Positions 1 to 23,880 of a DNA stretch of 24,270 nucleotides are shown one piece after another. Both the position numbers and the translations under genes were made by a program. Source of the DNA: a virus; IMG/VR virus record IMGVR_UViG_3300032224_000202, positions 1 to 24,270 of that record; one strand, 5' to 3'. The stretch's first letter is position 1; every line of letters begins with the position of its first letter. The notes beneath the pieces were generated by a model that was not told the DNA's origin, searched no databases, and was given only the letters and a program-made list of their open reading frames with translations.

Positions 1-175
1 AAATAGCGTGGAAGGTAGTTTCAGCTGGTTCGATTAGTTTTTCGGCATTTGTATACCAATCTATCAGGAATTCCTTCCTAGCCTTACGTTCTGCCCCATT
101 CATCCTACCCCACTTCTTTTCGTTTGGAGGAGGTTGGGCTGCAAGAACTCCGTCAATATCATAGGAAACTATCAT
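1..175 (-). CDS. HAD-superfamily phosphatase-like protein (partial, N-terminus only)
   Basis: Reading the minus strand from an ATG at 175 gives an open frame of 58 residues running off the left edge. It begins MIVSYDIDGVLAAQ. The DxDGVLA signature (Asp6 and Asp8) after a short hydrophobic strand is the catalytic motif I of HAD-superfamily phosphatases: the first Asp is the phospho-acceptor and the second the acid/base. The start overlaps the stop of the upstream gene (ATGA), so the two are probably translationally coupled. HAD proteins in T4-like phages include nucleotidases and the 3'-phosphatase domain of polynucleotide kinase. Which applies here cannot be decided because the cap and motifs II-IV lie outside the window. 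Its position behind a base hydroxylase and a glycosyltransferase makes a role in nucleotide or sugar-phosphate metabolism possible, but this is inference. Confidence 0.75.
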   Translation of the reverse strand, partial: MIVSYDIDGVLAAQPPPNEKKWGRMNGAERKARKEFLIDWYTNAEKLIEPAETTFHAI

Positions 176-1179
176 AGAATTAGGGGATCCACTTTACCTG
201 TCTTTTCAACAATGGCTTTCTGTTTCTCCCAAATAGCCTTACGGATCTCTTCAGAATAAGATGCAAATTTATCTAGTTCTTCTTTGGTATCAGTTGGGTA
301 GCACCAATTTAAACCCTTGTTACCTGCTGGAGCACAGACAGGAATACCAGCATAAAGAGCATGATAAGCACGACCAGTTCTCCAACCAGACTTTTTATGT
401 TTGTCATCATACACAGCTAAACAACCATGGAATGTTTGGTAGAATTTACGACGATCTCTTTGTTGTGGATTGTCAAGAATTTCCAATGCTTCATAATCTT
501 CCCACTCAGCTTCCTTACCTGCAATTTGTAAAAACCGAGAAGAAGTGAATTCCTTAAAGTATTTGGTTCTTCCATTTGGTCTGCCGATATAAACAACCTT
601 TGGAATAGAACCACCATGAAATTCAGCAAACTCCATACCAGAAGCCATTGGTAAATCAACAGTAGTTGAACCGATAGGGCATTTTAAAATCTCAGCTACC
701 TCAGTGCAGTTAGTTGCATTGGCAGCAATAGTCCAACGTGACCAATCTTCATCGGGAAGCAAATTCCATAGGAATGGAAGATCTGGATCATCGTTCAAAA
801 AGATAACACGACCCTTATGAGCCTTAATCATTTCAATAGTTTTATCCCAATACTTCTGATAGAACTGCAAGTTAGTTCCACCAAACTCAAGCATGAGAAC
901 ATCACACTCTTGATAACTGTCAAATGATTTAAATCCATCATCAGATGTAGCATCAGTTGGTTCAGATAGTGGAATGATTCTATGACCAAAGTCAAGCATG
1001 TTCTTGAATAGAGCTACACGTTTCTCTACCCAAGCACCACGAACACCATTCTCTTTATTGGTTAAACCAATCTTACCCGAAACCCTACGATAGCCAACAC
1101 GTGTTCCAGTATTGGTGGAGTTCTTTGAATAGAACCACTCCAGCAATCTTTCTTCACCTAAAAATTCATGTAATGACAT
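172..1179 (-). CDS. Putative GT-B-like glycosyltransferase
   Basis: This 335-residue protein looks like a two-domain glycosyltransferase. Residues 92-101 (CDVLMLEFGG) and 123-130 (GRVIFLND) resemble strands of an N-terminal Rossmann-like domain. A second domain appears to begin at KVVYIGRPNGR (194-204). It continues through a stretch ending GCLAVYD (252-258) to TGRAYHALYAGIPVCAP (268-284), which resembles the nucleotide-sugar-binding C-terminal region of GT-B enzymes. The start is supported by AAGGA just upstream of the ATG. It lies 8 bases after the JBP/TET-like hydroxylase gene and overlaps the HAD gene by 4 bases. Phage DNA glycosyltransferases commonly follow the enzyme that creates the hydroxymethyl group, so transfer of a sugar to hydroxymethylated DNA is the natural hypothesis. 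Donor and acceptor cannot be read from the sequence, and a role on another acceptor is possible. The family call is by pattern only. Confidence 0.6.
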   Translation of the reverse strand: MSLHEFLGEERLLEWFYSKNSTNTGTRVGYRRVSGKIGLTNKENGVRGAWVEKRVALFKNMLDFGHRIIPLSEPTDATSDDGFKSFDSYQECDVLMLEFGGTNLQFYQKYWDKTIEMIKAHKGRVIFLNDDPDLPFLWNLLPDEDWSRWTIAANATNCTEVAEILKCPIGSTTVDLPMASGMEFAEFHGGSIPKVVYIGRPNGRTKYFKEFTSSRFLQIAGKEAEWEDYEALEILDNPQQRDRRKFYQTFHGCLAVYDDKHKKSGWRTGRAYHALYAGIPVCAPAGNKGLNWCYPTDTKEELDKFASYSEEIRKAIWEKQKAIVEKTGKVDPLIL

Positions 1180-1187
1180 TATATTCC

Positions 1188-2498
1188 TTAACCGAAAAAT
1201 TCTTCCAAGCCATTCTTCAATGCTTGTGACTTTGGATGATATTTAATTAACTCGTCTTTGCCAAGTTTACTTTCAAGATATTGATACCATTCATCAGATT
1301 CCCACATACCTTCGGATACACCATTCCAAAGTGGTTTCTGGAATTTATGTTCTTTGTTTAGTCTGCGAGATTCAACAAACTCATAACGACAATTTTCATA
1401 TTCATATGAACCAAGTTCAAGCATCTTCTCACGGAAGTAAACAACCAAAGAGATACGCTCAGAACCTTCTTCACATTTAATCTCAGTATTGCCATGCATT
1501 ACTTCATGGTTATTAATCAAAAGCAAATCACCTGGACGTGGATTAACAGCAATACGATACTCAGGGCAAACAAGATATGCGCCAGTATATTTTCCATCAG
1601 GAGACAAAGTCAAAAGATTTGATAGTCCCGTATTCAAATCACCTACGTCATAGTGTGCTGCAGTTCTAAATGTTTTATTAACAGTCACTGTTGTGAATGG
1701 TGTATTTGGAACTAAGAACCTTGGATCAACTTTGTTCGCTGCAGCCATCTGTGCTGAATAACGCTGAGGAAGAAATTGTTTAAATCCTTCAGCCAAGTGT
1801 TGCAGGAAAGGATAAGACATAGCAAACTTTTCAGGATTCCTTTGAGTGTATGAAGTAGCACGACCATAAGGAATACGTGGATAACGATCAAACCATCCAG
1901 CGATACCAGAGTATACAGAGTTAGCGTAAGTAGTTGCGCAGATTAGTTTATCAGCAACATACTTGGCTTCTTTCTTTTGTTCAGGAATTGATAGATCTTT
2001 AACTCGGTTGACCCAATCTTCAAATACAAACTTATCTTTCTTAACACGATCGATTGACCAAACATTATTGCGATTAGATGGTGATGGTGGTTTACCAACA
2101 TGACGTGCACGAATTTCTGCGACAGGATCTCCGTCCAAACTGTTCTTTGGATCTAGGAAGTGTTCTACCATGTCGTACTCATACTCAGTAACCCATTCAC
2201 GATTACCCAACTTCTCACCACGTGGACCAGCTGCAGCTCCACGATTTTGTGTTTCAGTTGCTGCTTCACGAAGACCTGCATACGCTTGGTCTTGTTGTTC
2301 TTGAGTAAAGAAGTTCTTACGAAACTTCAATACGATTCTTTCTTCACTTCCAGTCAATTCAGGTGATCCTGGAATTTCTGGCATGTAAACATCACAGTCT
2401 TCATCAACAAGAAAATCAAAGTGACTCTCATCAACAAACTGACCCATAAGGTGTTTACAATCAAATTTTTGTTTAGCAATAATAACTTTTACTGTCAT
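1188..2498 (-). CDS. JBP/TET-family 2-oxoglutarate/Fe(II) DNA base hydroxylase
   Basis: The protein has 436 residues and a C-terminal-half dioxygenase core at about 264-356. TVNKTFRTAAHYDVGDL gives the HxD iron motif (His282, Asp284). PRPGDLLLINNHEVMHGNTE gives the distal iron ligand His335. SERISLVVYF gives Arg348, placed to bind 2-oxoglutarate. This arrangement, with GDLNTGLSNLLTL and the GAYLVCPEY strand, resembles the oxygenase domain of trypanosome J-binding proteins and the TET/JBP family, which hydroxylate thymine or 5-methylcytosine in DNA. Residues 1-260 are not recognised and could bind DNA. The last residues, GLEEFFG, resemble the clamp-binding tail of the polymerase in this window. 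The start has AGGAGA overlapping the gp41 stop codon. It sits between helicase gp41 and a glycosyltransferase, consistent with post-replicative base hypermodification. The family is fairly secure; the substrate base is unknown. Confidence 0.85.
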   Translation of the reverse strand: MTVKVIIAKQKFDCKHLMGQFVDESHFDFLVDEDCDVYMPEIPGSPELTGSEERIVLKFRKNFFTQEQQDQAYAGLREAATETQNRGAAAGPRGEKLGNREWVTEYEYDMVEHFLDPKNSLDGDPVAEIRARHVGKPPSPSNRNNVWSIDRVKKDKFVFEDWVNRVKDLSIPEQKKEAKYVADKLICATTYANSVYSGIAGWFDRYPRIPYGRATSYTQRNPEKFAMSYPFLQHLAEGFKQFLPQRYSAQMAAANKVDPRFLVPNTPFTTVTVNKTFRTAAHYDVGDLNTGLSNLLTLSPDGKYTGAYLVCPEYRIAVNPRPGDLLLINNHEVMHGNTEIKCEEGSERISLVVYFREKMLELGSYEYENCRYEFVESRRLNKEHKFQKPLWNGVSEGMWESDEWYQYLESKLGKDELIKYHPKSQALKNGLEEFFG

Positions 2499-2507
2499 AA
2501 TTTTCTC

Positions 2508-3905
2508 CTAGAACTTAAATCCACTAAACTGCTCTTCTTTATGTATTCGTTTTCCAAATTCACTTTTATCAAATAATGGTTTATCATCATCTTTGGTTCC
2601 AGAATCCATCAAGTTTTCTTGAGCAGATAGTTCAACATCATATAATTTCATCTTGGCTCTATCAATACCAATAACAAATCTCTTATAATATCCTGGATCA
2701 TTGTAACGATTCTTCAACTGTTTAACAATAATCTGGTTCAATCCTTCCAGTTCTTCATTACTAATTAAAGCAAACATAAAGTCAGCTGTAGCTGGCAAAC
2801 CAAATGACTCAGACGTATCTTCAAGACCTGGATCTGAATTTGTGAAACCCGATCGAGTTGTTTGAGTTGCTGAAATAATTGGAACATTATGTTCAACTGC
2901 AAGACCACGAAGTTCTTCAGCAATACTCTTGATATATGTATAAGAGTTTACACCATGACTCATCTTCATTCTTTGACTTGCACAAATATTCAAATAGTCA
3001 ATCATAATAATATCAGGAGTAAACTCACGCTTCATCTTTAATTCTTCAAGTAAAGCACGGAAGTGTCCTGCGTGGGCAGAAGCAGTAGGATATTCTTTGA
3101 CCACCAACTTACCTGTAGTCTTGGAAGCAACCTTACCAATACGTGTATCAAAGATATCCTTATCAACTACTTTCAATTCATCCATGGTTAGGTTCAATAA
3201 GTTCGCATCAATACGTTCAGCGATACGCTCTTCAGCCATCTCCATGGTAATGTATAAAACATTCTTACCTTGCATCAAAGCACCAGCAGCAACGTGACAC
3301 ATAAACAAAGATTTACCAACCCCAGTTCCTGCCAGTGCAATGTTTAGAGTTTTCTTACTGAGTCCACCTTTGGTGATTTTGTTGAACATGTCCAAGTCGA
3401 AAGGAATCTTCTCTTCCACCCTGTGATAAAAATCAAAGCGAGCATCACTGTCCTCGATATAGTCATGACCGACATGATTATCAAAGCAAACACCAAGTGC
3501 ATCAGACAGAATAGAAGGAATCGCATCTTTCTGATGAACCTTGTCATTACCTTCAATAATTTTGATTGATTGTAGGATTGCATTATAAACTGCCTTGTCT
3601 TTACAAAACTTCTCTGTTTCAGAAAGTAACCACTCGTCATTTGTTTCTGTCTTGGTTAAATCCGCAGCAAACTTTTGATACTCTGGAACTTCTTTATCAG
3701 TTAGTCCGCTAATGTTACCAATCTCAATTGATAGGATTTCTTGCGTTGCTGGCTTGTTATACTTTTCAAAAAAATCTAAAAGTATCTTTACTGCGGTTAA
3801 TTCTTTTCTATCGCTAAAATATTCTTTCTTCAGATGAGGAACTACCTTACGGCAATATTCTTCATTGTGAATCAGGTTCGCTAGGATCGCCTGTTCTATT
3901 CTCAT
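2508..3905 (-). CDS. 41: DnaB-like replicative helicase, T4 gp41-like
   Basis: This is the hexameric 5'-3' helicase of the phage replisome, which unwinds the fork and works with primase. From the ATG at 3905 it has 465 residues, close to T4 gp41 (475). An N-terminal helical domain with MRIEQAILANLI is followed by the RecA-like core. This carries Walker A GTGVGKS (193-199), ITMEMAEERIAERIDANLL downstream, and Walker B DIIMIDYLN (298-306). GTG codons upstream extend the frame, but the ATG is preferred because AGGTGG lies 5 bases before it and the homologue begins similarly. The gene overlaps the 3' end of the gp40-like gene by 44 bases and follows uvsX in the T4 order uvsX-40-41. Its stop codon overlaps the ribosome site of the base hydroxylase gene. 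Confidence 0.95.
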   Translation of the reverse strand: MRIEQAILANLIHNEEYCRKVVPHLKKEYFSDRKELTAVKILLDFFEKYNKPATQEILSIEIGNISGLTDKEVPEYQKFAADLTKTETNDEWLLSETEKFCKDKAVYNAILQSIKIIEGNDKVHQKDAIPSILSDALGVCFDNHVGHDYIEDSDARFDFYHRVEEKIPFDLDMFNKITKGGLSKKTLNIALAGTGVGKSLFMCHVAAGALMQGKNVLYITMEMAEERIAERIDANLLNLTMDELKVVDKDIFDTRIGKVASKTTGKLVVKEYPTASAHAGHFRALLEELKMKREFTPDIIMIDYLNICASQRMKMSHGVNSYTYIKSIAEELRGLAVEHNVPIISATQTTRSGFTNSDPGLEDTSESFGLPATADFMFALISNEELEGLNQIIVKQLKNRYNDPGYYKRFVIGIDRAKMKLYDVELSAQENLMDSGTKDDDKPLFDKSEFGKRIHKEEQFSGFKF

Positions 3906-4203
3906 CAACACCACCTGTGTACGTTAAATTGTTTTTTGCTATACCTTCGTGTAGAAGTTCTTGAAGAATGTCTCCAATATATTTCTCGAAAGGTTTTGTA
4001 TCGGTAAGGACTTTATTATTGTAGTCTAGAATCTCATAATCAAATTTGATATGCAAAGATGACTCTTCTTCATTTTCTTCAAACGAAACCTTACCGTATT
4101 CATAAATTATACCATCAAATGGACTTTCTGTCAACTTTATCGCATCATGTCCATTGTTGCGATTTTCTACAACAACATATTTGAATAAGTTATTCTTCGT
4201 CAT
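3862..4203 (-). CDS. 40: Head vertex assembly chaperone, T4 gp40-like
   Basis: This 113-residue protein is placed exactly where T4 carries gene 40, between uvsX and 41. T4 gp40 assists assembly of the portal vertex at the membrane. The body reads as a small acidic alpha/beta protein with IIYEYGKVSFEE and LHIKFDYEILDY, patterns I associate with the head vertex assembly chaperone family of T4-like phages. The C-terminus is polar (DENRTGDPSEPDSQ). The chosen ATG at 4203 overlaps the uvsX stop by 14 bases. An upstream extension to 4260 would lie wholly inside uvsX and encodes a basic tail, so it is rejected. No strong Shine-Dalgarno is visible, suggesting translational coupling to uvsX. The identification rests mainly on position, size and motif memory. 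Confidence 0.72.
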   Translation of the reverse strand: MTKNNLFKYVVVENRNNGHDAIKLTESPFDGIIYEYGKVSFEENEEESSLHIKFDYEILDYNNKVLTDTKPFEKYIGDILQELLHEGIAKNNLTYTGGVDENRTGDPSEPDSQ

Positions 4204-5260
4204 CGATATTTGCCAATTCTTTTTCGATTTCCTCGTCTTTAAGGATCTCTGATGAACCAACTTGATATTTGTTTTTTACAAATTCAATAAAAGACTTTTG
4301 TTTAAGTACTGGCATCCAAAATTCTTTAGTATCTGTATCTTTGACACGGAACTTCTTATCTTCTATTTCACCAGATTCCTTGTCCACTTTTGAGTACCAA
4401 CCATTAGATGGCTTAATAACATGTCCCGACTCCAAGGCAATATCCAATAAACCAGACCAACGGCTAATACCACCATCATGATAAACCGTAACAGGTATCT
4501 TAGATTTTTCTCTGACATAACGACTCTTCTCTACGTTAATAATGAAGTTATATCCAATAACTTCAGTTCCTTCTTTTTCTTGTTGACGTCCAAGGATGTA
4601 TACGTTATCAGCTGAATACATCGCACCAGTTCCACCACCTACGATTGCTTTGGGGAACATACCAATTTCCATGTAAGTGTGATTCACAACAACTAATGGA
4701 ATATCTTTCAAGTTCAAGTGTGGGGTAATCATACGGAACAATGACTTCATTTGTTTTGCTCGAGTCATGTCACCAACAGACTTACCTTCCAACGCATCTT
4801 CTACTTCCTTTTTAGACGCAAGATTACCAATAGAATCAATAACAATAATAAGATGGTCGCCACGTTCAACTCCTTGTAGCTGTTGCATAATATCAAATTT
4901 TAATTGTTCTACATCGGTAAGGGGAGTATGAACAACTCGGGATGTGTCGATCCCAAAAGAATCAAAGTAAGACTGAGGAGTACCGAACTCACTGTCATAA
5001 AAAAGTAAAGCAGCATCTGGATATTTGTCCATGTAAGATTTGGCCATCAACAAACTGAAGGCAGTTTTAAAATGCTTTGATGGTCCAGCCCACATAGTGA
5101 TACCTGGAGTTAAACCACCATCAAGGCGACCTGATAATGCAATATTAATTGCAGGAACTGAAGTTGCGATCATATCCTTCTTAGTGAAGAATTTTGAAAC
5201 ATTAAGAACAGCTGAATCTTTGATCGTTGTGTTCTTTTTAATTTTATCTAAAATACTCAT
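4190..5260 (-). CDS. uvsX: RecA-like recombinase UvsX
   Basis: UvsX coats single-stranded DNA and carries out strand exchange in recombination-dependent replication and repair. The protein has 356 residues (T4 UvsX 391). It shows the family's variant Walker A GPSKHFKT (59-66), LLFYDSEFGTP (85-95) with the conserved acidic residue of RecA-type ATPases, Walker B LIIVIDSIGNL (137-147) and VVVNHTYMEIG (190-200). It ends in an acidic tail (IDDEE), as recombinases of this group do. The ATG has AAGG 7 bases upstream, shared with the end of the thioredoxin gene, which stops 1 base before. It is expressed with thioredoxin from the promoter at 5530-5558 and leads into gp40-like and gp41. Confidence 0.95.
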   Translation of the reverse strand: MSILDKIKKNTTIKDSAVLNVSKFFTKKDMIATSVPAINIALSGRLDGGLTPGITMWAGPSKHFKTAFSLLMAKSYMDKYPDAALLFYDSEFGTPQSYFDSFGIDTSRVVHTPLTDVEQLKFDIMQQLQGVERGDHLIIVIDSIGNLASKKEVEDALEGKSVGDMTRAKQMKSLFRMITPHLNLKDIPLVVVNHTYMEIGMFPKAIVGGGTGAMYSADNVYILGRQQEKEGTEVIGYNFIINVEKSRYVREKSKIPVTVYHDGGISRWSGLLDIALESGHVIKPSNGWYSKVDKESGEIEDKKFRVKDTDTKEFWMPVLKQKSFIEFVKNKYQVGSSEILKDEEIEKELANIDDEE

Positions 5261-5560: not shown

Positions 5561-6115
5561 TTATTTTGGATTCTTTTTATTGTGAGGAACATCAAATACA
5601 AAAGTAATCCTAACCTCTTCTCCAACATTCTCTGTTCCATGCAATAATTTATTATTGAACCACAACAGAGTTCCTGGTTCTACTATGTATTCTTCATCGC
5701 CAACGAAGTATTTGTATCTTCCTGCAATAGAAAGATGATAGCGATCTCGAGTTTGATAGTAGCTACCCACGTCAATATGTTTGCCAACAAATCCACCAAC
5801 AGGTAGTGACAAGAAACCACAGCGATCGTGTTTGTGGAAATGACGTTTCATAAAACTAACAATTTCTGTGTGTCTGTCATACGCAGGTGTCTTTACAGAA
5901 AGTTCTGAATCGCCTACATATTCACCTTCTTTGGCAATCGCACCCATTACTAATTGCAATACACCAGCCTCAAGAACTGGGAAACCAAAATCTTTGTGGA
6001 CGCTAGATGTTCCTTCGATTGTTTTCTCAGCACCCCAATCAGCTTTATATTGTTTTAGCTGAGCAAGAATCTTTGATACATTAATCCCTGTTCGAATGAC
6101 TTTGATGTTATCCAA
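5561..6115 (-). CDS. Aspartyl/asparaginyl beta-hydroxylase-like 2OG-Fe(II) oxygenase
   Basis: The protein has 184 residues with a C-terminal double-stranded beta-helix fold. Visible motifs are GFVGKHIDVGSYYQTRDRYH, giving HxD iron ligands His113 and Asp115, the distal ligand in LLWFNNKLLHGTENVG (His159), and EEVRITFVFDV (Arg169), suited to binding 2-oxoglutarate. The spacing and the YHLSI and KYFVGDEEYIVEPG segments fit the aspartyl/asparaginyl beta-hydroxylase family. In phages the target of these enzymes is unknown; it could be a protein or a modified nucleotide. It overlaps the end of DNA polymerase by 8 bases and is the last gene before the promoter at 5530-5558, so it is co-transcribed with the polymerase. 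It is distinct from both the JBP/TET-like and prolyl-4-hydroxylase-like proteins in the window. Confidence 0.8.
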   Translation of the reverse strand: MDNIKVIRTGINVSKILAQLKQYKADWGAEKTIEGTSSVHKDFGFPVLEAGVLQLVMGAIAKEGEYVGDSELSVKTPAYDRHTEIVSFMKRHFHKHDRCGFLSLPVGGFVGKHIDVGSYYQTRDRYHLSIAGRYKYFVGDEEYIVEPGTLLWFNNKLLHGTENVGEEVRITFVFDVPHNKKNPK

Positions 6116-9175: not shown

Positions 9176-9721
9176 TTATGACAGATGACTAAACCATCCT
9201 GTTGTTACATACTTTTCTTTAGTGTGAGAAATTTCACCACGATGTGTAAATGTCCAATCTGTTGGCCAAATTAAAGTCATTCCCTTTATAGCAGGTGATG
9301 TGAAATTTTGGTGTTTGAATTCTGTACCACCATCATCAACGTCATTTAGATATGTCATAAAAACTAAGTGACGAGCACTAATTCTTCCATGTCCACCATG
9401 TCGTTCACAATGCCACATTTTATATCCACCACTAATAGGATACCATTGAACACCAATAGGTTCAGTTATAGTCCAACGAGATTTACCACCTGCTTCTGGA
9501 TATTCTTTAACATATTTTTGTACTGCAATAACAAGTTCTTTATAATATCTAGAAGTAACATTATCTTTTAAATCTAAAGGAATGTCTATCGATTCTTTAA
9601 CATCTGGACTAAACAAAGACTTCTGTCCAGCTCTTCTCTCTGTGTGATAGTCAATCAAGTCATCACAAAGAGAGATATCTTCAAGAAAATATTTTCCAAT
9701 AAATTGAGGATACTCCAACAT
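9176..9721 (-). CDS. Prolyl-4-hydroxylase-like 2OG-Fe(II) oxygenase with HxE variant motif
   Basis: The protein has 181 residues. The C-terminal half has the order expected for prolyl-4-hydroxylase-type dioxygenases: an iron motif at YKMWHCER, the strand HLVFMTYLNDVDDGGTEF (118-135), the basic-turn region KGMTLIWPTDWTFTHRG (147-162) with distal His160, and KEKYVTTGW with Lys170 as the probable 2-oxoglutarate binder. The first iron motif reads His104-Cys-Glu106, H-x-E rather than the usual H-x-D. I recall HxE in phage proteins of this type, but it deserves checking. The target is unknown; proteins or nucleic acids are possible. It forms TAATG with the upstream unknown gene and precedes the DexA-like gene by 9 bases. 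Confidence 0.8.
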   Translation of the reverse strand: MLEYPQFIGKYFLEDISLCDDLIDYHTERRAGQKSLFSPDVKESIDIPLDLKDNVTSRYYKELVIAVQKYVKEYPEAGGKSRWTITEPIGVQWYPISGGYKMWHCERHGGHGRISARHLVFMTYLNDVDDGGTEFKHQNFTSPAIKGMTLIWPTDWTFTHRGEISHTKEKYVTTGWFSHLS

Positions 9722-18870: not shown

Positions 18871-19206
18871 TTATTTCTCCAAAGAGTATTTAATATCATG
18901 CTCATATAAAAACATCAGACAGCACATCGCATGTGCCAAGTGATTCTTTCCAGTTTCGGGATCGTTCTTCTCTCCCTCTTTCCATGCCCAAAGATGTCTT
19001 TGCATTGCGTCAAAGTATCTACGTTTTGAGTCAGGAACAAACTTCCAATTATCTGGTTCGTATTTCTCCGCACCAAATGTCAGAATTTCCACAGTTGCTT
19101 TCAAAGCAAGTGGAGGTAACAAACCATATTGAAGTTTGTTACCATCAAATTTTCGCCCACCAGTAGTTGCTGTTTGGGACTTTTTAACTTCGTCTTTAGA
19201 TGCCAT
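18871..19206 (-). CDS. dATP/dGTP diphosphohydrolase-like protein (DUF5664 type)
   Basis: The 111-residue product has GGRKFDGNKLQYGLLPPLAL, then EILTFGAEKYEPDNWKFVPD and HLAHAMCCLMFL. These are features of the family annotated as the N-terminal domain of dATP/dGTP diphosphohydrolases, related to MazG-type all-alpha NTP pyrophosphatases. The acidic and histidine residues (GAEKY, HLAHA) probably bind a metal and nucleotide. Such an enzyme would alter the nucleotide pool. ATG 19206 has GGAGG 5 bases upstream and overlaps the 34-residue gene's stop (TGATG). It is immediately before the sliding clamp. Whether it acts on canonical or modified nucleotides is not visible. Confidence 0.75.
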   Translation of the reverse strand: MASKDEVKKSQTATTGGRKFDGNKLQYGLLPPLALKATVEILTFGAEKYEPDNWKFVPDSKRRYFDAMQRHLWAWKEGEKNDPETGKNHLAHAMCCLMFLYEHDIKYSLEK

Positions 19207-19310
19207 CAATCCTCCGCAGAATCAGTATTATTTCGTAGACATGAAACACCTACATAAATTATTCCCAATATTAAAAACAGAGTGACAACTAAGATAGTAA
19301 TTTCAATCAT
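19206..19310 (-). CDS. Small membrane protein (34 aa)
   Basis: From ATG 19310 the 34-residue frame reads MIEITILVVTLFLILGIIYV, then GVSCLRNN and an acidic end. About 18 residues form one hydrophobic helix followed by a Cys-Leu-Arg segment. The stop overlaps the next ATG (TGATG) and its last codons contain the GGAGG ribosome site of that gene, supporting a real coupled gene. GGAA upstream of its ATG is a weak ribosome site. It resembles other single-helix phage proteins with no known role. Confidence 0.62.
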   Translation of the reverse strand: MIEITILVVTLFLILGIIYVGVSCLRNNTDSAED

Positions 19311-20182: not shown

Positions 20183-21361
20183 TTAAAATGGTACTTCATC
20201 TTTTGCAGATTCTGCAACAGGTGGTACCTCAGCTACAACAACTTCAGGAGCAGGGTTTGCAACTTTCTCAAAGAGATCTAAGAACGCAGCTTTCGTTGCA
20301 GAATCAAAACGATTGCAGCAAAGTTCCACAGCTTTCTTTTCATCTTTAAAGATTGCAAATGCACGAACGATATGGATCATACGACGTGTTGTAATCGTCT
20401 CGTCCACACCACCATCCTCGAAAGTGCGACGAATTGCTTCAGCCCACTTCACAAGGTTATCTGCAAACTCAGCATTTAAGCAGTTGTATGTTTGCATTAG
20501 GTTCTGAATAATCTTATTCTCGATCTTAGCATTAGGATAATCCTGTTCAAACGTAACAGCGAATCGCTCCAAGAATGCTTCGTTAAGTACGTTGGTACCG
20601 ATGTAACGACCATCATCGCTACCCTTACCTTTGGTGTTTGCAGTTGCAAAGATATTGAATCCAGGTGCAGGAACAATAACTTCGTTCTTCAACTTAAAGT
20701 AATATGGCTTACCCTCAAGAATTGGTTGCAAGCATAGCAAGGTATTTGCTGAGCCAGCATCAATTTCGTCAAGCAACAATGCAGTACCATTGCGCATAGC
20801 AATAAGAACTGGTCCTTCGACAATTTGCACGTCACCATCTTCCAATGTTTTGGAGCCGATGAGTTGCTCTTCGTCAGTCATCATGTTTAGGTTAACACGA
20901 ATTAGTGGACGTTTGTGCTTGGCACAAATCTGTTCAACCATGGTAGACTTGCCATTCCCAGTTGGTCCACTGATATATGCAGGATAGAAAATACCTGCTT
21001 TGATAATTGACTCCAAATCATTGAAGTTACCAAAGGGAACAAAGTTTGCATCTTTTGCAGGGATCAAAGATTTTGTGTTTGAATAATCCACGCTAAAAGA
21101 CTCTACAGGTTTTTGTTCAGGTTTACGTACTGTGTTTCCAACAACAGCAGGCGCAGGGGTAGACTTACCACCATCGAGCGCATACAAGCCACGACCGATC
21201 GGTGTCTTCATCAACCACAATGGGTGATAATCGATGTTATTCTTTTCACGCACATACAATAATTGACTGCGTGTAACCTTACCATCGGTTTTAGCATCAG
21301 GAAACATTGTGAAGAGTTTATCTTCGAAAAATGCTTTTTGGTCTTCGGTAATCTTTGCCAT
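20183..21361 (-). CDS. cobS: MoxR/CobS-like AAA+ ATPase
   Basis: The 392-residue protein has an N-terminal domain (residues 1-65) with FEDKLFTMFPDAK, TRSQLLYVREKNN and HPLWLMKTPIGRGLYALD. A disordered linker follows, then the AAA+ core: AYISGPTGNGKST (Walker A at 132-139), IRVNLNMMTDEEQLIG, ALLLDEIDAG (Walker B 195-201), FNIFATANTKGKG (sensor 1) and FLERFAVTFEQDYP. This pattern matches CobS-type ATPases of T4-like phages; CobS in bacteria is a cobaltochelatase subunit. The phage has no CobN here, so chelation is doubtful, and a MoxR/vWA chaperone role with the 726-residue vWA protein next door is likelier. ATG 21361 follows a GTG at 21364. It is driven by the promoter at 21417-21445. Confidence 0.88.
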   Translation of the reverse strand: MAKITEDQKAFFEDKLFTMFPDAKTDGKVTRSQLLYVREKNNIDYHPLWLMKTPIGRGLYALDGGKSTPAPAVVGNTVRKPEQKPVESFSVDYSNTKSLIPAKDANFVPFGNFNDLESIIKAGIFYPAYISGPTGNGKSTMVEQICAKHKRPLIRVNLNMMTDEEQLIGSKTLEDGDVQIVEGPVLIAMRNGTALLLDEIDAGSANTLLCLQPILEGKPYYFKLKNEVIVPAPGFNIFATANTKGKGSDDGRYIGTNVLNEAFLERFAVTFEQDYPNAKIENKIIQNLMQTYNCLNAEFADNLVKWAEAIRRTFEDGGVDETITTRRMIHIVRAFAIFKDEKKAVELCCNRFDSATKAAFLDLFEKVANPAPEVVVAEVPPVAESAKDEVPF

Positions 21362-21416
21362 CACTTACTCACTTTCTTTCATAATAAAATATAACGATTT
21401 ACAACTCTATACAATA

Positions 21417-21456: not shown

Positions 21457-21500
21457 AATAACCTTACAATCCGTAGGGGATTCGTTGCAATTACGCAACG
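21457..21500 (-). repeat. Stem-loops of promoter cassette B (PeSL-like)
   Basis: CGTTGC/GCAACG with a 6-base loop occurs at 21483-21500, identical in its arms to cassette A, followed by an imperfect repeat of the AATAACCCT stem (21457-21482). The first hairpin overlaps the stop codon of the vWA gene, so part of the cassette is coding. Confidence 0.75.
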
Positions 21501-23671
21501 TACCCTATGAACTGGTTTAGAAGGACTCGGCTGGTCTTTTTATTGGTCATATGTTTAGTGAAACTTCTTGCAATCTGTTTCGCAGTTTGTTTCTCTTCGA
21601 TAGCCAATTCTTTAACTTCAACAGCAAGACGAGTTTGCGGGATAATAAACAAATCATCACGACCACTATCTTTAACTGAAGCAAAACCATTATCACGAAA
21701 CTCTTTGCGCCACTGTTCAATCATACCATACTCACCACCTGTATATCCAGGTAAATTGGAATGAATAGCACCACAAAGATAACGACGATTATTGGGGCAG
21801 ATATAAAACCCAACGCTATTAACACCATAACGATCTTTAATCAAACTCAAAATAGCTGCAGTTTGTACTGGTCCATTGCGTGTAATTTTATAAGATTTCT
21901 TTGTAATAGGATCTTGTAAGAAATGCTTTAGGTTAATTCTGACACGTTTGTATGGGTCTTCTGGAGTTGCATAACTTTCGCTTCGATATTCTTCCAAACT
22001 ACCACGTGATAGAGGATATAACGCACCACCTTCGCCATCGGTTAGAGTGATGAATGACATTTTTTCAACAGAATTCTTTTTAATGAATTGTGGAATGTAT
22101 GTAACCATATATGCAAGTGCTTCATTCAATGGTGTTCCACCTGTGTGGTACTCGCCATGTTTTGAGTGCCTAAACATATTGATATCCAGAAGGTATTTAC
22201 ACATTGTAGTAAATTCAACATTGGACATTTTATGACTAAACAATTCTAGTAGCGCAAAATTATTACAAGCATTGTTAAGAACATTACTATTAGTATCAGT
22301 AGTTTCTTGATATTTCTTAGTCATTATTTCACGACTTAAACCGATATCATATTGGCTGCTAAATGCAAATACTTGATATGGAATTTGAGCACGTTGGCAG
22401 AACATAGCAAGTGTAACAACTTGTTTAACTGTATCTTCTAAACATTGATCCATTGAACCTGACCAATCAAGCAAGAAAATCATTCCATGATTTTTACCTT
22501 GTGGGAAAGTTGTCAGACGTTTAAACAAATCATCATTTAATTTGTAAGACCAAACTTTCTTCATATCCAAAGAACCAATCTTTGAAGTCTGAGCACGTTT
22601 ATACATCGTTGCAGACTTCTTCATCTCAAACTCTTTATTGAGATAACTCACAATACGACTTGCTTCATTTTTAAATTCATCAATCGGTTTGACTGGGAGT
22701 TCGCAACGTGCATAGTTCTCAGCTACGTCACTCAAAATTGTTTTGTAATGAACCACGTGATCCAAAGTAAACTTATCGTCAAGAGTATAATAATTAAACT
22801 CTGTAGTATCATCGGCTAGCTGAGCAAGATTTTCCTCGAGAGTTTTATCTGTTACAGACTCCAACTCTTTATCAATTTGTTCTTGTTTCTTTTCTTCAGG
22901 ATTGCGTGAACCACGACTGGCTTTAGTTTCTTCGTTCTCGAAACCTTTGTCGTCAGAATCATCTTCTTTAGGATCAGCGTCATCCATGTCAGAATCATCG
23001 ATGCTGTCGAAGTCTTCGTCTTCATCATAGATGTCATCGATATCATAGTTATCGTCAGGATCGTTTTCTTCGTCCTCTTCTTCAAACTCATCGGATGCTT
23101 GCATTTGCTCAGCACGTTTCTTTGCTTGCTCTTGCGAGTATGCATAGATGTCATGAGCCAACTGCACTACTTCTGAAATTTCTTCAGTTTTCTCTGCACG
23201 AATCACAAAGGGTTTTTCTTCAGGTGTAAAAGTAACACCACAAGAATAGCCTGCTTTGAAATATAGGTTCATGCGATCAATCAAGTTGAGAGTTCGCAGG
23301 TGTGATTTTGATACACCAAAGAAGTCCTTCTCGTTGAGTTGACGATAACCCTCTAGCATCGTTTTGCGGATACCAGGATATTTACGTTTGAGTAATTTCT
23401 CGATGCGTACGTCTTCAAGCACGTTGAGGTACGACATCATTTTTGGATTTTCTTTGATAGGTAAAGTATATTCTTCGCCTGTCCAAAGTGCGTGTCCTAC
23501 TTCGTGACCAACCAACATACCCTCAACTTCAGGTGTCATGTCTTTCCACATAGGGATGGTCAAAACACGGGACTTGATATCAAAGGATGCGGTACGACAT
23601 CTTGCACGACGCACGCTAATATTTTCTGTTGCCAATAGTTTGGCTGAAAGGTCAACTGCATTGATTTTCAT
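21491..23671 (-). CDS. cobT: CobT-like vWA protein with HExxH domain
   Basis: From ATG 23671 (AGGAAA upstream) it has 726 residues. The N-terminal third carries HEVGHALW (residues 56-63), an HExxH zinc-type motif, and LEDVRIE, which may supply a third ligand. Residues about 194-249 are an extremely acidic linker (for example YDEDEDFDSIDDSDMDD). The C-terminal part is a von Willebrand A domain with a full MIDAS: FLLDWSGSM (DxSxS at 402-406), HTGGTPLNEAL (Thr) and TLTDGEGG (Asp). This combination resembles CobT-like/vWA partners of MoxR ATPases. Its AAA+ partner is encoded directly downstream. The protein probably forms a remodelling complex with it; the substrate is unknown. Peptidase activity is possible but unproven. 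Confidence 0.88.
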   Translation of the reverse strand: MKINAVDLSAKLLATENISVRRARCRTASFDIKSRVLTIPMWKDMTPEVEGMLVGHEVGHALWTGEEYTLPIKENPKMMSYLNVLEDVRIEKLLKRKYPGIRKTMLEGYRQLNEKDFFGVSKSHLRTLNLIDRMNLYFKAGYSCGVTFTPEEKPFVIRAEKTEEISEVVQLAHDIYAYSQEQAKKRAEQMQASDEFEEEDEENDPDDNYDIDDIYDEDEDFDSIDDSDMDDADPKEDDSDDKGFENEETKASRGSRNPEEKKQEQIDKELESVTDKTLEENLAQLADDTTEFNYYTLDDKFTLDHVVHYKTILSDVAENYARCELPVKPIDEFKNEASRIVSYLNKEFEMKKSATMYKRAQTSKIGSLDMKKVWSYKLNDDLFKRLTTFPQGKNHGMIFLLDWSGSMDQCLEDTVKQVVTLAMFCQRAQIPYQVFAFSSQYDIGLSREIMTKKYQETTDTNSNVLNNACNNFALLELFSHKMSNVEFTTMCKYLLDINMFRHSKHGEYHTGGTPLNEALAYMVTYIPQFIKKNSVEKMSFITLTDGEGGALYPLSRGSLEEYRSESYATPEDPYKRVRINLKHFLQDPITKKSYKITRNGPVQTAAILSLIKDRYGVNSVGFYICPNNRRYLCGAIHSNLPGYTGGEYGMIEQWRKEFRDNGFASVKDSGRDDLFIIPQTRLAVEVKELAIEEKQTAKQIARSFTKHMTNKKTSRVLLNQFIGYVA

Positions 23672-23694
23672 AATATATTTCCTATTCTCAAGAC

Positions 23695-23880
23695 TCAATT
23701 ATACTCTACTTCTGAATTATTGTCAAGTGAAAAAGCATTATCGAACTCATATTTCGTTAAAACCGACTCAATTTCGTTGCGATTTTGCAACGATAAGTCT
23801 TGGTTAAACTGGAGTAGGTCTTGGAAACCATATTCGCCAGCGAGTTGAGCCAGCTCAAAATCATTAAAATCATTCCACAT
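23695..23880 (-). CDS. Small acidic unknown protein whose 3' end carries a promoter (61 aa)
   Basis: From ATG 23880 the 61-residue product reads MWNDFNDFELAQLAGEYGFQ and includes LSLQNRNEIESVLTKYEFDN and a C-terminus of NNSEVEYN. The pattern ‘DF-x-x-ELA-x-LAGEYG…NR-x-E-I-E-x-x-LT-x-x-E’ is familiar from other T4-like phages, function unknown. Codons for Ser, Leu and Asp at the C-terminus form the -35 TTGACA, and those for Glu, Tyr and Asn the -10 TATAAT of the vWA gene promoter. It follows the 68-residue gene with a 2-base gap. The CGTTGC hairpin also lies inside it. Both protein and regulatory roles appear to be encoded. Confidence 0.65.
   Translation of the reverse strand: MWNDFNDFELAQLAGEYGFQDLLQFNQDLSLQNRNEIESVLTKYEFDNAFSLDNNSEVEYN
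23698..23726 (-). promoter_or_regulatory. Consensus sigma-70 promoter for the vWA gene, cassette C
   Basis: TTGACA (23726-23721), 17 bases, TATAAT (23703-23698) on the minus strand, with ATAATTCAG directly after the -35 as in cassettes A and B. It is within the coding end of the 61-residue gene, about 27 bases before the vWA ATG at 23671. Confidence 0.85.
23775..23792 (-). repeat. CGTTGC/GCAACG hairpin of cassette C
   Basis: Six perfect pairs with a 6-base loop, the same arms as at 14031-14048 and 21483-21500. It lies inside the 61-residue gene, about 50 bases upstream of its promoter. Confidence 0.75.

Follow-up and report, generated by a model that had tools for sequence, protein, structure and literature searches.

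In kinetoplastids, base J is made by the hydroxylases JBP1 and JBP2 together with a J-glucosyltransferase, which has been described as a GT-A enzyme. Bacteriophage T4 uses gp42 and a beta-glucosyltransferase (BGT), and phages M6/YuA, ViI, and phiW-14 hypermodify thymidine by means of a deoxyuridine monophosphate (dUMP) hydroxymethylase, a 5-hydroxymethyldeoxyuridine (5-hmdU) DNA kinase, and an amino acid:DNA transferase (ADDT). Burke and colleagues are said to have described, in 2021, phage TET systems in which a C5-methyltransferase, a TET enzyme, and TAGT glycosyltransferases form a pathway from 5-methylcytosine (5mC); these TET-Associated Glycosyltransferases (TAGT) have a Pfam family of their own. 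The combination of TET/JBP enzymes with glycosyltransferases in phages is already known, and the cytosine pathway has been summarized (PMC12730594). According to a 2019 paper (PMC6449724), no phage genome had been reported to contain glucosylated 5-hmdU, and we found no later report of it in phages in a literature search of incomplete coverage. Here, we describe three serial genes, encoding a hydroxylase, a glycosyltransferase (GT), and a HAD-type protein, in the 24,270-base virus fragment IMGVR_UViG_3300032224_000202 of IMG/VR (the whole of this stretch is called the window below). We consider it likely that they form a T4-like phage cassette for DNA hypermodification that, after replication, converts thymine to 5-hydroxymethyluracil (5hmU) and then to glycosyl-5hmU. 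New here are a GT family that is structurally beta-GT-like and belongs to no sequence family, the association of this GT with a HAD protein, and evidence for a thymine target.

A TET/JBP-superfamily hydroxylase

The initial annotation ascribed a JBP/TET-type core to the product of positions 1188 to 2498, citing HxD at residues 282 and 284, His335, Arg348, and the string GDLNTGLSNLLTL. All of these were found in the protein, which matched Pfam Tet_JBP (PF12851; E = 2.6e-24; 85.8 bits against a cut-off of 34.9). Residue conservation was read from an alignment of 36 phage hydroxylase homologues with identity down to 21%, in which the ligands were invariant (Table 1). The family profile also matched human TET2 (E 6e-11), with the TET2 HRD motif aligned to H282-D284. 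An AlphaFold2 model (predicted local distance difference test [pLDDT], 87) had the TET-type double-stranded beta-helix fold, and its closest structures were TET2 (Z 20.1), CMD1 (18.8), NgTET1 (18.1), and CcTet (18.0), with the next family (6n1f, AlkBH3) trailing at Z 13-14 and other dioxygenases, AlkB-type ones included, at 14 or less. The structure-based search therefore placed the model inside the TET/JBP fold, and we conclude that the protein is a TET/JBP-superfamily hydroxylase. Because a Pfam scan of all 436 residues returned nothing beyond Tet_JBP and a weak match to TauD, with no SNF2 or J-DNA-binding domain, and because the thymine substrate is predicted, we do not file it as a JBP.

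Relatives of the hydroxylase are carried by at least 296 viral contigs, several under misleading names. In Caulobacter phage Cr30, Stenotrophomonas phage DLP6, and Synechococcus phage S-CBWM1, Tet_JBP proteins are misnamed "SNF2 DNA repair protein." Another misnomer is "queuine tRNA-ribosyltransferase," a label borne by Tet_JBP proteins in phrog_6059, mycobacteriophage gp2, and many RefSeq phage records and apparently propagated from one to the next.

A glycosyltransferase with the T4 beta-glucosyltransferase fold

Eight bases separate the hydroxylase gene from the next one, at 172 to 1179, which had been read as a putative GT-B glycosyltransferase. Sequence comparison lent this no support: the protein matched no Pfam or PHROG family, and no true sequence relative was found in Pfam, PHROGs, named phages, or the PDB, leaving placement to predicted structure alone. 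Weak matches to Adenylsucc_synt (E 0.065) and to interleukin-2 were set aside as chance, and assignment to TAGT (PF20691) was rejected, as neither the window GT nor eight GT-type records gave a profile match. The predicted structure, built on a deep alignment of 35 phage homologues and modeled with confidence (pLDDT 93.7), bore the reading out. It is a GT-B fold whose best solved match was T4 BGT (1j39; Foldseek E 2.8e-9; Z 22.7 over 294 aligned residues at 3.1 Å and 12% identity by VIA-align), followed by T4 alpha-glucosyltransferase, likewise an enzyme of DNA, at Z 17.4, level with the non-DNA enzyme TarM. The model thus stayed inside the glycosyltransferase folds, and by this structure the enzyme resembles T4 beta-GT, not the kinetoplastid J-glucosyltransferase.

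D131, R200, R204, and R270 of the GT were matched to T4 BGT residues (Table 1) that we take to be catalytic or UDP binding; D100A appears in the title of one T4 BGT structure matched by Foldseek. Among cellular genomes, the GT was nearly missing (one metagenome-assembled contig), and we therefore treat it as phage specific.

The hydroxylase, GT, and HAD-type genes are linked across genomes

Of the 75 GT loci with room for one, 71 had a Tet_JBP gene nearby, upstream in 66 and downstream in 5. The downstream cases have another order, namely, ParB_N, GT, HAD, and a short Tet_JBP (e.g., L147). Since this linkage spans the UvsX/helicase cluster and quite different genome regions, chance adjacency is unlikely. 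It could be argued that the hydroxylase modifies DNA while the GT has glycans or proteins of the host or virion as its targets: GTs are numerous in phages, and for a few GT homologues (L165 and the short contigs L117 and L169) no hydroxymethylase was detected nearby. However, the linkage persists over unrelated contexts and in two gene orders, and the closest GT folds are DNA glucosyltransferases, so we regard mere neighborhood as very improbable.

The third gene, annotated at first as a HAD phosphatase following the GT, exits the record after 58 codons, and of the HAD motifs only motif I lies inside the window. In 17 full-length homologues, D6-x-D8-G-V, S59, K102, and E116-D117 were invariant, which is the HAD catalytic set. 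The HAD-like part of the label is thereby upheld by the homologues; the window itself offers the first 58 residues, the homologues reached no Pfam family at threshold, and the family profile matched no convincing solved structure. Of 65 loci with room for it, 61 have the gene next to the GT, and it accompanies the GT when the rest of the cassette or the source of the hydroxymethyl group changes. It therefore probably serves the glycosylation step.

This constancy is also what would be expected if thymine is hydroxylated but the product is not simple glycosyl-5hmU: the sugar moved by the GT would be phosphorylated or unusual, with the HAD protein then dephosphorylating it, or the HAD protein would act on a DNA-bound adduct. 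S-CBWM1 fits such a scheme, as genes for a HAD-like protein, a nucleotidyltransferase, and a kinase stand beside its hydroxylase and TAGT. Against this, no sugar-nucleotide synthesis gene adjoins the GT in the window lineage, and the substrate of the HAD protein is not readable from sequence. We consider this version possible but doubtful.

Comparative context points to thymine as the substrate base

The initial annotation left open whether the hydroxylase acts on thymine or 5mC. Within the protein itself, D287, which closes the HxDxGD motif (N in 5 of the 36 homologues), sits where TET2 has Asn in HRDxHN and does not by itself discriminate T from 5mC. Comparative context now favors thymine, with three independent contexts pointing to it. 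In sister phages, the place of the GT after this hydroxylase is taken by ADDT and a P-loop kinase, a set of enzymes associated with thymidine hypermodification. ADDT-type contigs of 164 and 168 kb carry the hydroxylase with ADDT and a kinase, and neither contains a thymidylate synthase (TS)-family gene and hence a dUMP hydroxymethylase. The hydroxymethyl group for ADDT must then come from elsewhere, most simply from the hydroxylase, and we conclude that in these contigs it is most likely made by the TET/JBP enzyme.

A further context is L170, which holds the most distant GT found (34-36% identical), again with a HAD gene. Here the pair adjoins HMUDK_hel (PF18723, E 9e-26), the helical domain of 5-hmdU DNA kinase, which was seen in L170 only among 13 records, and a TS-family enzyme that replaces TET/JBP. 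Among named proteins, that enzyme is closest to ones from Pseudomonas Yuavirus-type and Bordetella phages, some of them annotated as deoxyuridylate hydroxymethyltransferase, and Yuavirus phages have a putative deoxyuridylate hydroxymethyltransferase together with a 5hmdU kinase (PMC11946847).

The absence of other enzymes is consistent with thymine as well. None of 28 distinct records, among them the complete genomes of Cr30, DLP6, S-CBWM1, and C48C1, contained a C5-methyltransferase (PF00145), so a substrate of phage-made 5mC is unsupported. That no cytosine methyltransferase is visible in the window was confirmed by a PF00145 scan of its record. The wider search proposed at the outset was extended to these relatives, and the result holds for them and not for the whole genome of the window phage. 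The companion statement, that the window lacks a deoxycytidine monophosphate (dCMP) hydroxymethylase, agrees with a Pfam scan covering a subset of its open reading frames, in which none matched. Among 14 GT-type records, TS-family PF00303 was likewise absent, which removes the T4 route.

Several observations weigh against the pathway through 5hmU. The best fold matches of the hydroxylase are 5mC enzymes, and the GT has the fold of T4 beta-GT, an enzyme acting on hydroxymethylcytosine (hmC); phages are known in which a C5-methyltransferase, TET, and GTs make glycosylated cytosine (PMC12730594). T4 beta-GT prefers hmC and glucosylates hydroxymethyluracil (hmU) in some contexts only (PMC4111573), and the beta-GT fold cannot separate hmC from hmU. 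The profile-profile alignment of the GT with T4 BGT (hhalign) was weak at E 0.17, and the residue correspondence was made partly by eye. The window record covers 24 kb of a genome, and most relatives are likewise fragments; the ADDT/kinase cassette is identified with thymidine hypermodification by Pfam names and published pathways; and the function of the HAD protein is not explained by this pathway.

Several of these points would suit a TET-like cytosine route, in which 5mC, supplied by the host or by an undetected methyltransferase, is oxidized to 5-hydroxymethylcytosine and glucosylated by the beta-GT-like enzyme. We nevertheless judge this route unlikely, given that PF00145 was missing even from the four complete isolate genomes, that the same hydroxylase partners ADDT and kinase, and that the GT-HAD pair adjoins a 5-hmdU-kinase-type protein and a TS-family enzyme in L170.

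For the pathway through 5hmU, we propose that the TET/JBP-type dioxygenase would use Fe(II), 2-oxoglutarate, and O2 to oxidize the 5-methyl group of some or all thymines in polymerized phage DNA, during or after replication, yielding 5hmU. The T4-beta-GT-like enzyme would then glycosylate the new hydroxyl. Its donor would be a nucleotide sugar of the host, in the simplest case UDP-glucose supplying glucose, and the product would be glycosyl-5hmU, a thymine resembling base J. At the GT step, the HAD protein may remove or recycle a phosphate, and the modified base would presumably shield phage DNA from restriction or CRISPR nucleases. Hydroxylation of finished DNA followed by sugar addition, unlike in T4, was the order suggested at the outset; both enzyme assignments passed profile and structure tests, and this order remains the best reading of them. 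A base-J-like modification has so far been known only from trypanosome-type parasites; judging from the models and gene contexts, the phage cassette very probably makes one.

Probable exchange of decoration genes behind the hydroxylase

A sister set of phages has hydroxylases 70-75% identical to that of the window at the same UvsX-helicase position. In 56 of 80 sister-set loci, the hydroxylase is followed downstream by an ADDT cassette, consisting of a class II amidotransferase (GATase)/amidoligase-like protein, GNAT, ADDT (PF18724), and a P-loop kinase (PF18751). No locus had both ADDT and GT; ADDT and kinase were not found in large GT-type records and were present in large ADDT-type ones. 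In a phylogeny of 105 hydroxylases, those of GT type and of ADDT type formed clusters that nevertheless interleaved. For the same phages, the helicase tree required at least 5 cassette changes versus 2 on the hydroxylase tree (both trees were quick, with some long branches), which suggests that the hydroxylase travels with the cassette more than with the replication genes.

Other partners were seen as well: a GT4 enzyme beside the hydroxylase in L044, TAGT and a nucleotidyltransferase/APH-like fusion in DLP6, and ADDT plus a weak TAGT-like match in Cr30, with PF20691 matches in S-CBWM1 and DLP6. On balance, we favor a viral base-J pathway, composed of TET/JBP and a beta-GT-fold enzyme acting on finished DNA, in which the hydroxylase is a platform for exchanged cassettes (beta-GT plus HAD, ADDT plus kinase, GT4, TAGT plus nucleotidyltransferase, and a UDP-galactopyranose-mutase-linked form), allowing postreplicative thymidine hypermodification without dUMP hydroxymethylase.

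Individual phages carry further arrangements. In S-CBWM1 (L189, 3729-7921), the hydroxylase is followed by genes for TAGT, a HAD-like protein, NTP_transf, and an APH-like kinase, with which the phage apparently supplies its own sugar nucleotides for glycosylating DNA. In C48C1 (L190, 5902-9349), it is followed by a 344-amino-acid protein that matches no Pfam family and then by a UDP-galactopyranose mutase (PF03275, E 6e-52), which hints at DNA galactofuranosylation; the 344-amino-acid protein was tried as a GT relative and showed no relation to the GT profile. The cultured cyanophage P-HS2 of Prochlorococcus (L194, 3647-5771) has ParB_N, an FkbM-type methyltransferase, and Tet_JBP, annotated as hypothetical, one after another and might O-methylate a hydroxymethyl base. 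In some GT-type relatives (L007, L008, and L094), an oxygenase of a third kind (PF13759) lies between hydroxylase and GT.

Gene neighborhood of the cassette

The window is a T4-like replication region with nearly every gene on the minus strand, encoding AAA and VWA-like proteins, sliding clamp, clamp loader (Gp44), RegA, DNA ligase, family B polymerase, thioredoxin, UvsX, and a DnaB-like helicase. The cassette lies at the downstream end of this region, and the helicase and UvsX-like recombinase are its constant upstream neighbors in the T4-like set.

TABLE 1 Positions of cassette genes, key residues, and upstream neighbors in the window
Feature	Position	Strand	Basis
Start of HAD-superfamily phosphatase-like gene (~150 aa in relatives; 58 aa in window)	1..175	-	ATG overlaps GT stop (ATGA)
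GT-B glycosyltransferase, T4 beta-glucosyltransferase fold, 335 aa, predicted to glycosylate hydroxymethylpyrimidine in DNA	172..1179	-	Predicted structure
GT Arg270, matched to T4 BGT Arg269	370..372	-	34/34 sequences covering position; by eye
GT Arg200-x3-Arg204, matched to T4 BGT Arg191-x3-Arg195	568..582	-	35/35 invariant; correspondence by eye
GT Asp131, aligned with T4 BGT Asp100	787..789	-	35/35 invariant; weak hhalign, E 0.17
TET/JBP-superfamily 2-oxoglutarate/Fe(II) dioxygenase, predicted thymine hydroxylase on DNA, 436 aa	1188..2498	-	Pfam, model, profile
Arg348, 2-oxoglutarate-binding	1455..1457	-	36/36 homologues invariant
His335, distal Fe(II) ligand	1494..1496	-	36/36 homologues invariant
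Asp284, Fe(II) ligand of HxD motif	1647..1649	-	36/36 homologues invariant
His282, Fe(II) ligand of HxD motif	1653..1655	-	36/36 homologues invariant
DnaB-like replicative helicase (T4 gp41 role)	2508..3914	-	PHROG phrog_19 E 1e-127; Pfam DnaB_C; neighborhoods
UvsX-like recombinase	4190..5260	-	Pfam T4_UVSX_C E 1e-18; neighborhoods

Two more 2OG-Fe(II)/cupin-type oxygenases, of other subfamilies (PF05118-like; PF13640), are encoded at 5561-6115 (-) and 9176-9721 (-). A match to dGTP_diPhyd_N (PF18909, dATP/dGTP diphosphohydrolase; E 6e-34) lies at 18871-19209 (-), and another occurs in Cr30 (L002, 10193-10720); this family is linked to 2-aminoadenine phages. A MoxR/CbbQ-like AAA ATPase (20183-21364) adjoins a 735-amino-acid protein that reads like a VWA-type partner and has no Pfam match (21491-23698, -).

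Comparison with known systems

If the proposed pathway is true, kinetoplastid base-J chemistry has a viral counterpart using a different glycosyltransferase fold, a postreplicative entry into thymidine hypermodification is added, and compact enzymes for T hydroxylation and 5hmU glycosylation in DNA become available. The swapping of decoration cassettes behind a single hydroxylase offers a model of an arms race with restriction enzymes that can be tested directly, and the cultured relatives Cr30, DLP6, and S-CBWM1 make thymine specificity testable now.

The predicted phage pathway shares with base J a TET/JBP-superfamily hydroxylation of thymine in DNA, followed after replication by a separate GT on 5hmU. 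Unlike JBP1 and JBP2, the phage hydroxylase has no SNF2 or J-DNA-binding Pfam match; the phage GT is T4-beta-GT-like, the genes sit in a replication cluster, and the modification is likely protective. With T4, the window shares the beta-GT fold, the part of the genome concerned (polymerase, UvsX, and gp41 helicase), and apparently the D/R/R/R positions, which were matched partly by eye. However, T4 makes hydroxymethyl-dCMP before polymerization, whereas the window lineage is predicted to hydroxylate DNA, at thymine, and no TS-family gene was found in its 14 GT-type relatives. The C5-methyltransferase, TET, and TAGT (PF20691) phages likewise use a TET/JBP hydroxylase and then glycosylate DNA; the present system differs from them in the lack of C5-methyltransferase in the 28 records and of TAGT matches in the window GT and the eight GT-type records. 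Finally, as in M6/YuA, ViI, and phiW-14, the sister phages deploy ADDT and a P-loop kinase, placed after the hydroxylase, but the hydroxymethyl group is apparently made on DNA by TET/JBP, and the window has a GT in place of kinase and ADDT.

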